Origin: Actinomycetota bacterium
Lineage (GTDB): Bacteria > Actinomycetota > Acidimicrobiia > Acidimicrobiales > JAJPHD01
Direction of reading: 5' to 3'
Length of the DNA: 64,000 bases
NCBI GenBank assembly: GCA_021325455.1
Contig: JAJPHD010000022.1
Coordinates: 1 to 64,000 of the forward strand
The stretch's first letter is position 1. Every line of letters begins with the position of its first letter. The notes below the pieces were generated by a model. The model saw only the letters and a program-made list of their open reading frames with translations, had not been told where the DNA came from and made no database searches. Of this stretch, positions 40,433 to 55,635 are shown in pieces. The position numbers and the translations under genes were made by a program.

Positions 40433-41308
40433 CTAGTTGGTGCAGTACCCGTAGGGGTCGATGGGCGCGTTGCCCCAGCTGTTGGAGGCCTCGTTCATGT
40501 ACGCCGCCGGGCAGGGGTCGGCGATCACTATCTCCGAGACCCCCATGGGGCACTCCGGCGGGTGGTTGGAGCAGGTCATTGCCTGGTGCCCCCAGGCGTA
40601 CCCGGGGCAGATGAAGGTGTAGCCGGGAGCGGCATGGGCCTGCAGGTAGGCGATGGCGGCCGCGCAGCCATAGCCCGCCGGCTGGGTCGTGGGGGGCGCT
40701 GCCGTGGTCACCGGGGCCTGGGTCGTGGGCGGCGCCGAGGCCGTCGTGGGCGGGGCCGGGGCCGTCGTGGGGGGCGGCGGGACCGTGGTCGGAGGTGGGG
40801 GGACGGTGGTGGGGGGTGGCACCGTGGTGGTGGGAGCCGGCGTGGTCACGGGGGCCTGCGTGGTGGCCGGGGCGGTGACAGTGGTGGCCGGCGCCTGGGG
40901 CCGGGCGGGCCGGCGGTGCCTGGCCGCCCGGGCCAGGGCCAGCTCGGCCCGGGTGGCCCGGTGCAGGACCAGGAGGTACCTCTGGGAGGCGCCGGACCCC
41001 GATGCCGCCCCATCCTGGGCCTTCTCCCTCAGCTCCATGAGGCCGATCCGGCTCCCCTTCAGGGTCCCCGAGGGGGCCACCACGACCAGCCCCGACCCGG
41101 CGCCGGCGGAGTGGGCCACAAGGCCGTCCGGGGTCCGCTGGCCGGTGAGGGCCTCCTGCGCGGAGAGCGGGCCGCGGGCGGAATGCCCGGTGAGGAGCCC
41201 GCCCAAGGCCAGGACCACCCCCAGCACCAGCACCCCCAGGGCCCAGGCGGTGGCATGGTGCCGGGCCCAGGGAGGGTGGCCTTCTGCACCAATAGCAGTT
41301 GTCCTCAT
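40433..41308 (-). CDS. Membrane-anchored protein with Thr/Pro linker and Cys-rich C-terminal domain
   Basis: A 291-residue protein. One transmembrane helix near the N-terminus (WALGVLVLGVVLALGGLL) anchors it with the rest outside. Residues about 60-125 are mixed. A roughly 80-residue linker of PPTT/APTT repeats follows, typical of extended wall-spanning spacers. The C-terminal 75 residues contain six cysteines (GCAAA, FICPGY, MTCSNHP, ECPMG, DPCPAAYMNEAS, YGYC) and probably fold with disulfides. I do not recognise this domain. A TACACT hexamer six bases before the ATG indicates a leaderless start. An unusual AT-rich repeat array lies just upstream. Confidence 0.7.
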   Translation of the reverse strand: MRTTAIGAEGHPPWARHHATAWALGVLVLGVVLALGGLLTGHSARGPLSAQEALTGQRTPDGLVAHSAGAGSGLVVVAPSGTLKGSRIGLMELREKAQDGAASGSGASQRYLLVLHRATRAELALARAARHRRPARPQAPATTVTAPATTQAPVTTPAPTTTVPPPTTVPPPPTTVPPPPTTAPAPPTTASAPPTTQAPVTTAAPPTTQPAGYGCAAAIAYLQAHAAPGYTFICPGYAWGHQAMTCSNHPPECPMGVSEIVIADPCPAAYMNEASNSWGNAPIDPYGYCTN

Positions 41309-41314
41309 ACAGCT

Positions 41315-41320
41315 AGTGTA
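41315..41320 (-). promoter_or_regulatory. -10 of the leaderless promoter for the 41308 gene
   Basis: Read on the minus strand, TACACT is followed by AGCTGT and the ATG at 41308. A TTGACT 19 bp further upstream is a possible -35. Confidence 0.5.
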
Positions 41321-41330
41321 GAGCAGAAGG

Positions 41331-41398
41331 GCTAAAAGTAGTCAAGACAACGCTAAAAGTGCTAATAGTGCTGAAAGCACAGTATGCAGCACTATTAG
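41331..41398. repeat. AT-rich iteron-like array with 11-bp inverted repeat
   Basis: Nine-base units GCTAAAAGT (41331), GCTAAAAGT (41352), GCTAATAGT (41361) and GCTGAAAGC (41370) are followed by an inverted repeat: CTAATAGTGCT at 41362-41372 and AGCACTATTAG at 41388-41398. Base composition is far below the surrounding GC. It sits between the divergent 41308 and folC genes and looks like a cooperative operator. Confidence 0.6.
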
Positions 41399-41476
41399 TG
41401 CTAGAGAGACCACCCGCCGCCGGGTACGGTGGGCCCTGTCCCCTCGCCACCCCCGTGGAGGGGGCAACCAACTCAC

Positions 41477-42841
41477 ATGCAACCCACCCTCCCCCCACCG
41501 CTGGTGACTCCCAGCCCCCGCCTGGCGGCCGCCCTGGCCAGGCTGGACGACCACGCCCACGCCGTGGCCCCGCCCGGAAGGCGGGGGGAACCCTCCCTGC
41601 GCCGCACGGCCGCCCTGCTCCGGGCCCTGGGCGACCCCCACCGGGCCGTCCCGGTCCTGCACATCACGGGGACCAACGGCAAGTCCACGACCGCCGCCCT
41701 GGCCGGCGCCCTCCTGGGGGCGGCCGGCCAGCGGGTCGGGGTGTACACCAGCCCCCACCTGGAGCGGCCCAACGAGCGCCTGGTCATGGCCGGGGAGCCC
41801 ATCGGGGACGAGGCGCTGGCCACGCTGCTGGAGCGGGTGCTGGAGGCCGAGGGGCCGGCGCTAGGGGACGAGCGGGCCGGCTACTTCGAGCTGCTGACGG
41901 TGGCCGCCTTCACCTGGTTCGCCGAGTCCGGGGCCGAGGCGGCCGTGGTGGAGGTGGGCATCGGGGGCCGGGCCGATGCCACCAACGTGGCCGATGGCAG
42001 GGTGGCGGTGGTGACCAACGTGGCCATGGACCATGCCGAGGTGCTGGGCCCCACGCTGGCCCACATCGCAAGGGAGAAGGCCGGGATCGTCAAGGCCCGC
42101 TCGCACCTGGTCCTGGGCCAAATAGACCCTTCCCTCCTCCCGATCTTCTCGTCCACTCCCGCCCGGCGCGCCTGGCGCCTGGGGGCCGACTTCGGATGGG
42201 GGGCGGCCGCACCGGCCGAAGGAGGTCAGTGCCTGGACCTGTTCACGCCGGGGGCCCGCTACGAGGCCGTGTACCTGGGCCTGGCCGGGCCCCACCACGC
42301 TGCCAACGCCTCCACGGCCCTTGGCGCCGTGGAGGCGTTCCTCGAGGCGCCGGTCCCGCCCGCCGCCGTGTCCCGGGCCCTGGCCGGGGCCGCCTCGCCC
42401 GGGCGCCTGGAGGTGGTGGAGGTGGAAGGGGGGCCGTGCTTCGTGCTGGACGGGGCCAAGAACCCCGCCGGCGCCGCCTCTGCCAGGGAGGGGGTCCCCG
42501 CCGCCACCGGCGGCCGGGACGCCGCCGTGGTGGTGGTGGGGCTCCTATCCGAGCGGGACCCGGTGGAGATGCTCTCGGCCCTGGGCATCGGGGCGGGCTC
42601 GGTGCTGGTGGCCTGCCCGCCGGCCAGCCCCCGGGGCCTGCCGGCGAGCGTGGTGGCCCAGGCGGCCCGACGGCTGGGGGCAGGGGCGGCCGAGGCGCCC
42701 TCGGTGGGGGAGGCGCTGGACCGGGCCGGCCGGATGGCCGGCCCGGGCCAGGTGGTGCTGGTGACGGGGTCGTTCTACGTGGTGGGGCCGGCCCGGGCCT
42801 GGCTGCGCCAGGCCCGGGCCGTCCCCCCGGGTCCTCAGTAG
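41477..42841 (+). CDS. folC: Folylpolyglutamate synthase / dihydrofolate synthase
   Basis: A 454-residue Mur-ligase-fold enzyme that adds glutamate to dihydropteroate or folates, using ATP. The P-loop HITGTNGKSTT and the following YTSPHLERPNERL give the N-terminal signatures. EVGIGGRADATN and TNVAMDHAEVLG supply metal and adenine contacts, and LSERDP the later fold element. The usual DGAHNP motif of the C-terminal domain reads DGAKNP, a change at a conserved histidine. The ATG at 41477 has GGAGGGGG 12 nt upstream; a GTG at 41429 in frame is less likely. It overlaps the convergent proS by 7 bp. Confidence 0.9.
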   Translation: MQPTLPPPLVTPSPRLAAALARLDDHAHAVAPPGRRGEPSLRRTAALLRALGDPHRAVPVLHITGTNGKSTTAALAGALLGAAGQRVGVYTSPHLERPNERLVMAGEPIGDEALATLLERVLEAEGPALGDERAGYFELLTVAAFTWFAESGAEAAVVEVGIGGRADATNVADGRVAVVTNVAMDHAEVLGPTLAHIAREKAGIVKARSHLVLGQIDPSLLPIFSSTPARRAWRLGADFGWGAAAPAEGGQCLDLFTPGARYEAVYLGLAGPHHAANASTALGAVEAFLEAPVPPAAVSRALAGAASPGRLEVVEVEGGPCFVLDGAKNPAGAASAREGVPAATGGRDAAVVVVGLLSERDPVEMLSALGIGAGSVLVACPPASPRGLPASVVAQAARRLGAGAAEAPSVGEALDRAGRMAGPGQVVLVTGSFYVVGPARAWLRQARAVPPGPQ

Positions 42842-44247
42842 GCCCTGCCCACCACCGCCACGGTGCCGGCGTCCTGCCCTGGCAGGGGCAGGCCGCCGTC
42901 GGGGCCCACCAGGCAGCGCACGGTGACGCCGGCGGTGGCCAGCTCGGCCTCGCCCTCGGGACCGAGCGAGGCCCAGGGCAGACGGGCGAAGCCGGCCTGG
43001 CCTGCCTCGGCGGCCTCCGGCACGGAGCTCACCTCGGCCGTGCGCTCCCTCTGGAAGGACTCGGCCTGGGCCAGCAGGTCCCGCTGGGCCTCCTCCAGGG
43101 CGGCGGGGACGACCTCGCTCACCGCCCGGAGGGGGACGGTCTCCTTGGTGCCCGGCACCCGGCGTGCCAGGGTGGCCTGGCCGGCGGCCAGCTCCCGGGG
43201 GCCGACGTCCACCCGGACCGGCACCCCCTTCAGGTCCCAGGCCGTGGCCCGCCGGCCGTAGGAGGTGTCGACCCGGTCGTCCAGCTCCACCCGCAGGCCG
43301 GCGGCGGCCAGCTCGCGCACCAGCTGGGCGGCGGCCTGGCCCGCTCCCTCCTCGTCCCGGACCAGCACCACGGCCACCTGGACGGGAGCCACCCGGGGGG
43401 GGACGCGGAGGCCGGCGTCATCGCCGTGGGCCATGATGAGGCCCCCGAGCAGGCGGGTGGAGGACCCCCAGGAGGTCTGCCAGGGGTAGGCGGTCCCGCC
43501 CGTCTCGGTCTGGAACTGGATCCCGAAGGCGCGGGCGAAGTTCTGGCCCAGCTCGTGGCTGGTGCCCATCTGCAGGGCCTTGGCGTCGCCCATCATGGCC
43601 TCGCAGGTCCAGGTGGTGGTGGCCCCGGCGAAGCGCTCGCGCTCGGTCTTGCGCCCGGTCAGGACCGGCACGGCCAGGATGTCCACCATCACCTCGCGGT
43701 ACACGTCCATGAGGATGCGCAGGGCGTAGCGGCGGGCCTCCTCCTCGGTGGCGTGGGCGGTGTGGCCCTCCTGCCAGAGGAACTCGGTCGTGCGCAGCAG
43801 GATGCGGGGGCGGAGCTCCCAGCGGACCACGTTCGACCACTGGTTGATGAGGAGGGGCAGGTCCCGGTGGCTCTGGACCCACTTGGCGAAGAAGGCGTTG
43901 ATGACGGTCTCGCTGGTGGGCCGCACCACCACGGGCTCCTCCAGCTCCTTGCCCCCTCCGTAGGTGACCACGGCCAGCTCGGGGCTGAACCCCTCGACGT
44001 GCTCGGCCTCCCGGCGCAGGTAGGACTCGGGGATGAAGAGCGGGAAGTAGGCGTTCCGGGCCCCGGTGGCCTTGATGCGGGCGTCGATCTCGGCCTGGAT
44101 GCGCTCCCATATGGCATAGCCGTAGGGGCGGATCACCATGGTCCCCCGCACCGGCCCGTTGTCGGCCAGCTCGGCCTTGGCCACCACATCCTGGTACCAG
44201 CGGGGGAAGTCCTCCGACCTCGGGGTGAGGACGCTCGCAGGAGCCAT
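42835..44247 (-). CDS. proS: Prolyl-tRNA synthetase (archaeal/eukaryote-like, type 3)
   Basis: A 470-residue class II synthetase charging tRNA-Pro. It lacks the editing insertion of bacterial-type ProRS and has the short N-terminus FPRWYQDVVAKAELADN typical of the type 3 form. Class II motif 2 region is LRTTEFLWQEGHTAHAT; RPTSET precedes it, and the motif 3 region includes TSWGSSTRLLGGLIMAHGDDAGL. The anticodon-binding domain starts near PRVAPVQVAVVLV. Start ATG 44247 has TAGGGT (44255-44260) seven bases upstream, so the message is probably leaderless; an in-frame extension to 44307 is antisense to the next promoter. Confidence 0.95.
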   Translation of the reverse strand: MAPASVLTPRSEDFPRWYQDVVAKAELADNGPVRGTMVIRPYGYAIWERIQAEIDARIKATGARNAYFPLFIPESYLRREAEHVEGFSPELAVVTYGGGKELEEPVVVRPTSETVINAFFAKWVQSHRDLPLLINQWSNVVRWELRPRILLRTTEFLWQEGHTAHATEEEARRYALRILMDVYREVMVDILAVPVLTGRKTERERFAGATTTWTCEAMMGDAKALQMGTSHELGQNFARAFGIQFQTETGGTAYPWQTSWGSSTRLLGGLIMAHGDDAGLRVPPRVAPVQVAVVLVRDEEGAGQAAAQLVRELAAAGLRVELDDRVDTSYGRRATAWDLKGVPVRVDVGPRELAAGQATLARRVPGTKETVPLRAVSEVVPAALEEAQRDLLAQAESFQRERTAEVSSVPEAAEAGQAGFARLPWASLGPEGEAELATAGVTVRCLVGPDGGLPLPGQDAGTVAVVGRAY

Positions 44248-44260: not shown

Positions 44261-44320
44261 GCGGGGACGGCCCCGGGCCCGCAGGTGGTTAAAAGGGCCC
44301 CTCGCATTTCTCAAATTGCT

Positions 44321-44349
44321 CTTGACATTCAGTCAAGTGTGGTTATCAT
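44321..44349 (+). promoter_or_regulatory. Strong promoter with palindromic operator over the -35
   Basis: TTGACA (44322-44327), 16 bp, TATCAT (44344-44349), then seven bases to the ATG at 44357: a leaderless promoter. CTTGAC-ATTCA-GTCAAG (44321-44337) is a perfect 6-bp inverted repeat covering the -35, the shape of a TetR/MarR-type operator. Confidence 0.7.
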
Positions 44350-44356
44350 TCTCTGC

Positions 44357-45346
44357 ATGACGGACGAGGAGAGGGCCATCCTGGAAGCAGTGGCCGAGGG
44401 ACGCATGACCCCCGAGGAGGCGGCCGCCAGGCTGGCTGGGGCCAGAGGGGGGACCGCCGGCGCCGCTGAAGCGGGGGAGGCCGGGGCCCGGCCCGCTCCC
44501 GGGGCGCCCGGCGGGGGAGAGGAGGCCCCCTTGCGGGTCCTGCGCGTGAGGGCCGCGGCCCGGCCCGTGCGGGTGGTGGCCGATGCCACCGTGGCCGAGG
44601 TGTCCGTGGAGGGCCACCACGAGGCGCGCCGGGAGGGTGACGTCCTCACGGTGAGCGCCCATCGCTGCGGTGACGAGGGCCCGGGGGGCTTCTCCTTCGT
44701 GGGCCCCCAGCTGGGTCGGCTGGCCCGGAGGGCCTGGCGTGAGCAGGAGCGCATGTGGCGAGACCAGCAGAGGGCCTGGAGGCACGGGGAGCGCCCCGGC
44801 CCCCCGCCGCATCCCGGACCTCCCCCCTGGGAGCGGGGCGGCCCCTGGGACTGGCACCACCAGCACGACTGGCCGGACTGGCGGGAGTGGCAGCGCCTGG
44901 TCGAGCCCCTGGTGGTGCGGGCCAACCCGGAGCTGGAGGTAGAGCTGGACATGAGCGCCGGGGCCGCCACCGTGTCGGGGCTGCGCCGCCGGGTCGGCGT
45001 GGAGGTGTCGGCGGGCTCGGTGACCCTGGAGGATGTCACCGGGCCCCTCGACCTGCGGGCCCAGGCCGCCGCCGTGCGGGTGCGGGGGCGCCTCTCCGAA
45101 GGGTCCTCCCGGGTGCGCTGCGACGCCGGCACCGTGTCAGTCGTGCTGGAGCCCGGCTCCGACGTGCGGGTCAAGGCCAGCTGCGAGCTGGGCCGTGTCC
45201 GGCTCTCCAGTGACGCCGGCGACTGGCGGGGCAAGGGCGTGGGCACCCGGGAGATGGTGGTGGGCTCCGGCCGGGCCACCCTGGAAGTGGAGGCCACCAT
45301 GGGCGCCGTGGACGTGCGGGCCGAGGCCGCCCGGGAGGCAGTGTGA
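44357..45346 (+). CDS. DUF4097-type beta-helix protein with short SHOCT-like N-terminus
   Basis: 329 residues. The N-terminal helix pair (DEERAILEAVAEGRMTPEEAAARL) resembles the short oligomerisation segment found in DUF4097/DUF2089/LiaX-type envelope-stress proteins. A disordered Trp/Arg/Pro-rich middle (about residues 110-190) follows. The C-terminal half repeats short strands (VELDMSAGAATVSGL, VEVSAGSVTLEDVTGPLDL, AAAVRVRGRL, RCDAGTVSVVL) as in a DUF4097 beta-solenoid. It is the first gene of an operon with a DUF2089 protein and an ABC exporter. In related operons such proteins take part in the response to membrane-active compounds. The message is predicted to be leaderless. Confidence 0.8.
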   Translation: MTDEERAILEAVAEGRMTPEEAAARLAGARGGTAGAAEAGEAGARPAPGAPGGGEEAPLRVLRVRAAARPVRVVADATVAEVSVEGHHEARREGDVLTVSAHRCGDEGPGGFSFVGPQLGRLARRAWREQERMWRDQQRAWRHGERPGPPPHPGPPPWERGGPWDWHHQHDWPDWREWQRLVEPLVVRANPELEVELDMSAGAATVSGLRRRVGVEVSAGSVTLEDVTGPLDLRAQAAAVRVRGRLSEGSSRVRCDAGTVSVVLEPGSDVRVKASCELGRVRLSSDAGDWRGKGVGTREMVVGSGRATLEVEATMGAVDVRAEAAREAV

Positions 45347-55402: not shown

Positions 55403-55635
55403 GGGTCGGGCCGGGTGCGGCTGGTGGGCGGTTGCGGCCGGCCCCGGGTGCCATGGGCAGAGAGGGTGCACGCCCTGTTGCAGAGTGCAAGAGATCCTTT
55501 TGAGTCAACTTGAGTCCACATATTGGCGCTGAATGCAATCAAAATGATCCCGCGCACTATGCAATAGGGCTTGTCACTCAGGCCGTCCCATGGCCCCGTC
55601 GGCGCCCTGCCCCCGGCTGGGCCGTGCAAGCCCTC
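55403..55635. other. Convergent intergenic region with an AT-rich patch
   Basis: Between the Rieske gene and glgP, positions 55480-55590 are much richer in A+T than the rest of the window and contain a TTGAGTC direct repeat (55500, 55510) and repeated TGCAA words. No convincing gene, tRNA or terminator with a U-tract is visible. Confidence 0.4.

Follow-up and report, generated by a model that had tools for sequence, protein, structure and literature searches.

An AT-rich island lies in the divergent intergenic region between a gene for a secreted protein and folC, and we give about an even chance to the proposal that it works as a locus-specific, multi-site cis-acting operator of this promoter region. 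The proposal, which is drawn from the arrangement of the DNA letters, fits with an inverted repeat that was not reproduced in any of 2000 shuffles, a palindrome accompanied by imperfect neighbours, an adjoining predicted promoter and the divergent intergenic position. The array of repeats carried by the island is a real, local and single-copy feature of ordinary kind, and among the genomes searched it occurs in this one only.

Results

The window, that is, the whole 64-kb stretch of DNA analysed here, reaches its minimum GC content at this island (Table 1), in agreement with an earlier note that had described 41315-41398 as a short low-GC island. Two other AT-rich islands, at 44289-44372 and 55482-55565 (the latter with a GC of 0.44), are less extreme and contain no repeats of this kind, and as far as sequence goes the array is without parallel in the window, as the earlier note had stated. 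As a control for composition we took 400 kb from elsewhere in this genome and found only one further place where the GC of a 101-bp segment is about 0.50 or less, and AT-rich DNA of such kind is rare in this genome. The genes near the array encode a GGDEF/EAL protein, FolC and a tRNA synthetase.

Table 1. Features of the island and of the genes that flank it (positions in the window)
Feature	Position	Strand	Remarks
Secreted/surface protein, 291 aa	40433-41308	-	Hydrophobic N-terminus, Pro/Thr linker, conserved C-terminal domain
Divergent intergenic region, 168 bp	41309-41476		Secreted-protein gene (-) versus folC (+), from ORF coordinates
AT-rich island	41314-41397		Minimum GC of the window, 0.405 over 84 bp, versus a mean of 0.730
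Predicted -10 element, TACACT	41315-41320	-	6 nt ahead of the ATG at 41308
9-mer GCTAAAAGT	41331-41339	+	Within the promoter spacer
Predicted -35 element of leaderless promoter, TTGACT	41340-41345	-	19-nt spacer
9-mer GCTAAAAGT, second copy	41352-41360	+	
Left arm of inverted repeat, AGTGCTAATAGTGCTG	41358-41373	+	Inner 12 bp perfect
9-mer GCTAATAGT	41361-41369	+	
Spacer of inverted repeat, 13 nt	41374-41386	+	Overlapped by small hairpin GTGCTGAAAGCAC at 41368-41380
Right arm of inverted repeat, CAGCACTATTAGTGCT	41387-41402	+	
Inverted 9-mer copy ACTAATAGT	41391-41399	-	8/9 match
folC (folylpolyglutamate/dihydrofolate synthase)	41477-42841	+	TIGR01499 above cut-off; Mur ligase domains

The four near-identical nine-base units that had been reported are present, but only three of them are direct copies (with spacings of 21 and 9) and the fourth is inverted and matches at eight of nine positions. 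One unit is placed between the -35 and -10 elements and the rest are upstream of the -35. The inverted repeat is also real and longer than the 11 bp first given for it, as it is perfect over 12 bp (CTAATAGTGCTG at 41362-41373 and CAGCACTATTAG at 41387-41398, with a gap of 13 nt) and can be extended to 16-bp arms in which 14 of 16 positions pair (41358-41373 and 41387-41402). The right arm forms a palindrome of 15 bp, AGCACT-ATT-AGTGCT (41388-41402), which has neighbours with two and three mismatches inside the island; a total of 3 was not reached in any of 100 shuffles. When the 101-bp island was shuffled 2000 times with its dinucleotides preserved, a perfect inverted repeat of at least 12 bp never appeared, alone or jointly with the 9-mer cluster, whereas four 9-mers at 8/9 were obtained in 70 shuffles, and the clustering of the 9-mers taken alone is weak. 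As GC-rich inverted repeats of greater length exist elsewhere in the window, raw length is no argument, and what sets this repeat apart is its occurrence in DNA of low GC.

The arrangement TTGACT-N19-TACACT-N6-ATG has the predicted layout of a leaderless actinobacterial promoter. Leaderless mRNAs and -10 motifs of the TANNNT type are frequent in Mycobacterium tuberculosis, an actinobacterium (PMC3898074). A motif of this type is also present here, and by sequence its distance from the ATG agrees with the 7-12 bp expected of a -10 element when transcription begins at the start codon itself. The pattern TTGAC[AT]-N16-20-TANNNT-N5-9-ATG occurs twice in the 64 kb (none expected), at 41345-41306 on the minus strand and at 44322-44359 on the plus strand, and both sites are located at plausible gene starts. 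The same pattern, with either ATG or GTG, is absent from the 400-kb control, so its -35 part is seldom met with in this genome. The leaderless promoter that had been placed beside the array, in front of a surface-protein gene, is thus recovered as a pattern match ending in the ATG at 41308. The second predicted promoter of the window, in the 44289-44372 island (TTGACA-N17-TATCAT, with the ATG at 44357-44359), precedes a gene for a SHOCT-like protein, which is followed by a DUF2089 zinc-ribbon/HTH gene. The 19-nt spacer led us to consider MerR-type control of the secreted-protein gene, and this was discarded as no clear dyad could be seen by eye within the spacer.

The secreted protein belongs to no Pfam or NCBIfam family. 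Its C-terminal domain (approximately the last 85 residues, with the pattern CAAAIAYLQAH..PGY.F.CPGYA.GHQAMTC), for which neither database has a model, is also present in a single further family of the order, at up to three places in one genome. The two relatives from that other family are 57 and 53% identical to the protein, mostly in this domain, and neither has the array upstream by eye; conservation of the array together with the protein was consequently rejected.

The exact unit GCTAAWAGT, which the earlier note proposed to look for throughout the genome, is found three times in the 2.95 Mb, always inside the island (the reversed control gives 8). Allowing up to two mismatches, the palindrome matches only the island and one site with two mismatches (C14:216069) that reads as a tRNA-Ile gene and, by eye, appears to be its anticodon arm. 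Across 395 genomes of the class, there is no exact copy of the palindrome outside this genome, and matches with one mismatch are rarer than those of the reversed control. BLAST searches with the array against 397 genomes of the order gave chance-length matches and no copy, those against phage and plasmid collections gave only matches of ∼25-40 bp with E near 1, and the matches listed by a 15-mer scan of viral contigs were nearly all single ones and thus uninformative. Regulation shared by folC genes was also discarded, as none of 29 other folC upstream regions contains an AGTGCT cluster. The comparison with relatives that had been suggested found no array in the 397 genomes of the order or in those upstream regions, and the genus and the family are each represented by this genome alone. 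The single copy in the genome and the lack of class-wide enrichment over the reversed control argue against a widespread regulon motif, which was rejected, and against a repeated element.

The array was compared with known systems of repeats. HrcA is present in this genome, and the array contains the half-site word AGTGCTAA, which is 8/9 of a half of its CIRCE operator (TTAGCACTC-N9-GAGTGCTAA), but in the array the halves either follow each other directly oriented or have 3 bp between them, and are never separated by N9. Canonical CIRCE elements exist elsewhere in the genome (two perfect and one with a single mismatch, one of them preceding a GroES-like gene), while the best match in the window is 13/18, at 44020, outside the island. 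Identity with CIRCE was accordingly rejected. The earlier note had also called the array iteron-like, and of this double description the operator part, next to a leaderless promoter, agrees with the anatomy whereas iterons in the replication sense do not, as these are regular direct repeats beside a rep gene and here the spacings are unequal and there is no replication gene among the examined neighbours.

Discussion

According to the operator reading, dimers of a regulator would bind up to four candidate 15-bp boxes of the form AGCACT-N3-AGTGCT, at 41328-41342, 41349-41363, 41367-41381 and 41388-41402. These boxes match 8, 10, 7 and 12 of the 12 specified positions, in that order, and their centres are 21, 18 and 21 bp apart, approximately two helical turns. 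The model was fitted after the sequence was seen, and boxes 1 and 3 are weak, since the window contains 132 and 596 sites with their respective scores. One box would overlap the -35 and the -35/-10 spacer of the secreted-protein promoter and the others would lie just upstream of the -35, so that the bound regulator would act chiefly on that gene, and perhaps on folC as well; we infer the protein binding itself, its co-operativity and the direction of control. Multi-box operators of dimeric regulators are known at bacterial promoters, and those of dimeric winged-helix proteins, TetR-type proteins and response regulators resemble the island in that their boxes, palindromic and repeated, are spaced by about two turns around the -35 and -10, although the island lacks an adjacent regulator gene and is a single site in its genome. 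Both of these differences count against an operator, as one that exists in a single copy usually adjoins the gene of its own regulator, and here the genome has the array only once and none of the neighbouring genes encodes a regulator. A more specific version, in which the operator is lineage-specific, its reader has a specificity so far undescribed and the AGCACT-N3-AGTGCT boxes control the secreted protein and perhaps also folC, appears doubtful.

The main rival is that the structure is incidental, and we consider this quite possible, though we do not favour it. The island would then be a neutral stretch of a promoter region in which slippage and local inversion generated the AGTGCT/GCTAAAAGT repeats, and only the -35 and -10 would matter. 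The restriction of the array to this genome, its absence upstream of the folC genes of relatives, the lack of enrichment in the class and the weakness of the 9-mer clustering by itself (70 of 2000 shuffles) are all consistent with this explanation. However, it has to account for the 12-bp perfect inverted repeat, which shuffling never produced, and for AT-rich DNA in a genome where the 400-kb control contained just one other such island.

It is unlikely that the arms function as RNA, either as a 16-pair stem in a plus-strand folC leader (acting as an attenuator or on stability) or, on the minus strand, as an element that ends antisense transcription from proS. The plus-strand fold of the 16-bp stem has an energy of -23.2 kcal/mol and a z of -4.0, which makes an RNA hairpin possible, both arm mismatches become G-U pairs when that strand is read as RNA, and on the minus strand the sequence has TTTT after the stem. 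However, Rfam gave no match, hence no RNA family identity for the island, a consensus scan gave no terminator, a plus-strand promoter upstream of the stem was not identified, and a 13-nt loop with an AU-rich stem would make a poor intrinsic terminator.

A lead of a different kind, and a very improbable one, is that the array could be an orphan operator with the autoregulatory geometry of the AbiEi family (16-bp arms and a 13-nt gap), the gene that belongs to it having been lost or lying elsewhere. The sole other island in the 400-kb control whose GC does not exceed about 0.50 (L221:8408-8456, on C17 at about 48.4 kb) contains an 18-bp inverted repeat whose arms, GTACTTGGTACCATGACG / CGTCACGGTACCAAGTAC, are likewise 13 nt apart. 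That repeat extends across the probable start of an AbiEi_4/DUF559-like gene, whose AbiEi_4 match is below the Pfam cut-off, and looks autoregulatory. Furthermore, the M. tuberculosis AbiEi homologue Rv2827c is reported to bind repeats with 23-bp arms placed 13 bp apart (PMC7319586), and the array is similar in its long paired arms, its gap and its position near a promoter. Nevertheless, 13 nt is one of many possible gaps, so that this match is weak and may be due to chance; the arms have no evident sequence in common, one arm of the array is palindromic and direct repeats accompany it. Moreover, no AbiEi gene or remnant is seen beside the array (AbiEi-like relatives are on contigs C17 and C22 and none is on C21), and upstream of the other paralogous places a repeat of this type is lacking. 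The AbiEi/DUF559-like paralog at C22:278739-279657, with two overlapping matches and a stop, is apparently a broken gene.

The slightest chance of all goes to a foreign insertion, as the earlier note had alternatively suggested, in the form of a relict mobile element or an integration site: the composition is strongly unlike that of the surroundings, but the array is single-copy, has only short chance-level matches in phages, plasmids and the 397 genomes of the order, shows no obvious target duplication and no mobile gene among the examined neighbours, and an AT-rich promoter island is also present at 44289 in the window.

Should the island be an operator, it would represent one control point of the secreted protein, in a family of which the collection examined has one genome, and the array would be a well-defined bait with which to fish for the regulator. 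It discloses no new kind of system. Finally, the genome contains two FolC-like genes, at 41477-42841 of the window and at C27:831-2114, which are 53% identical.
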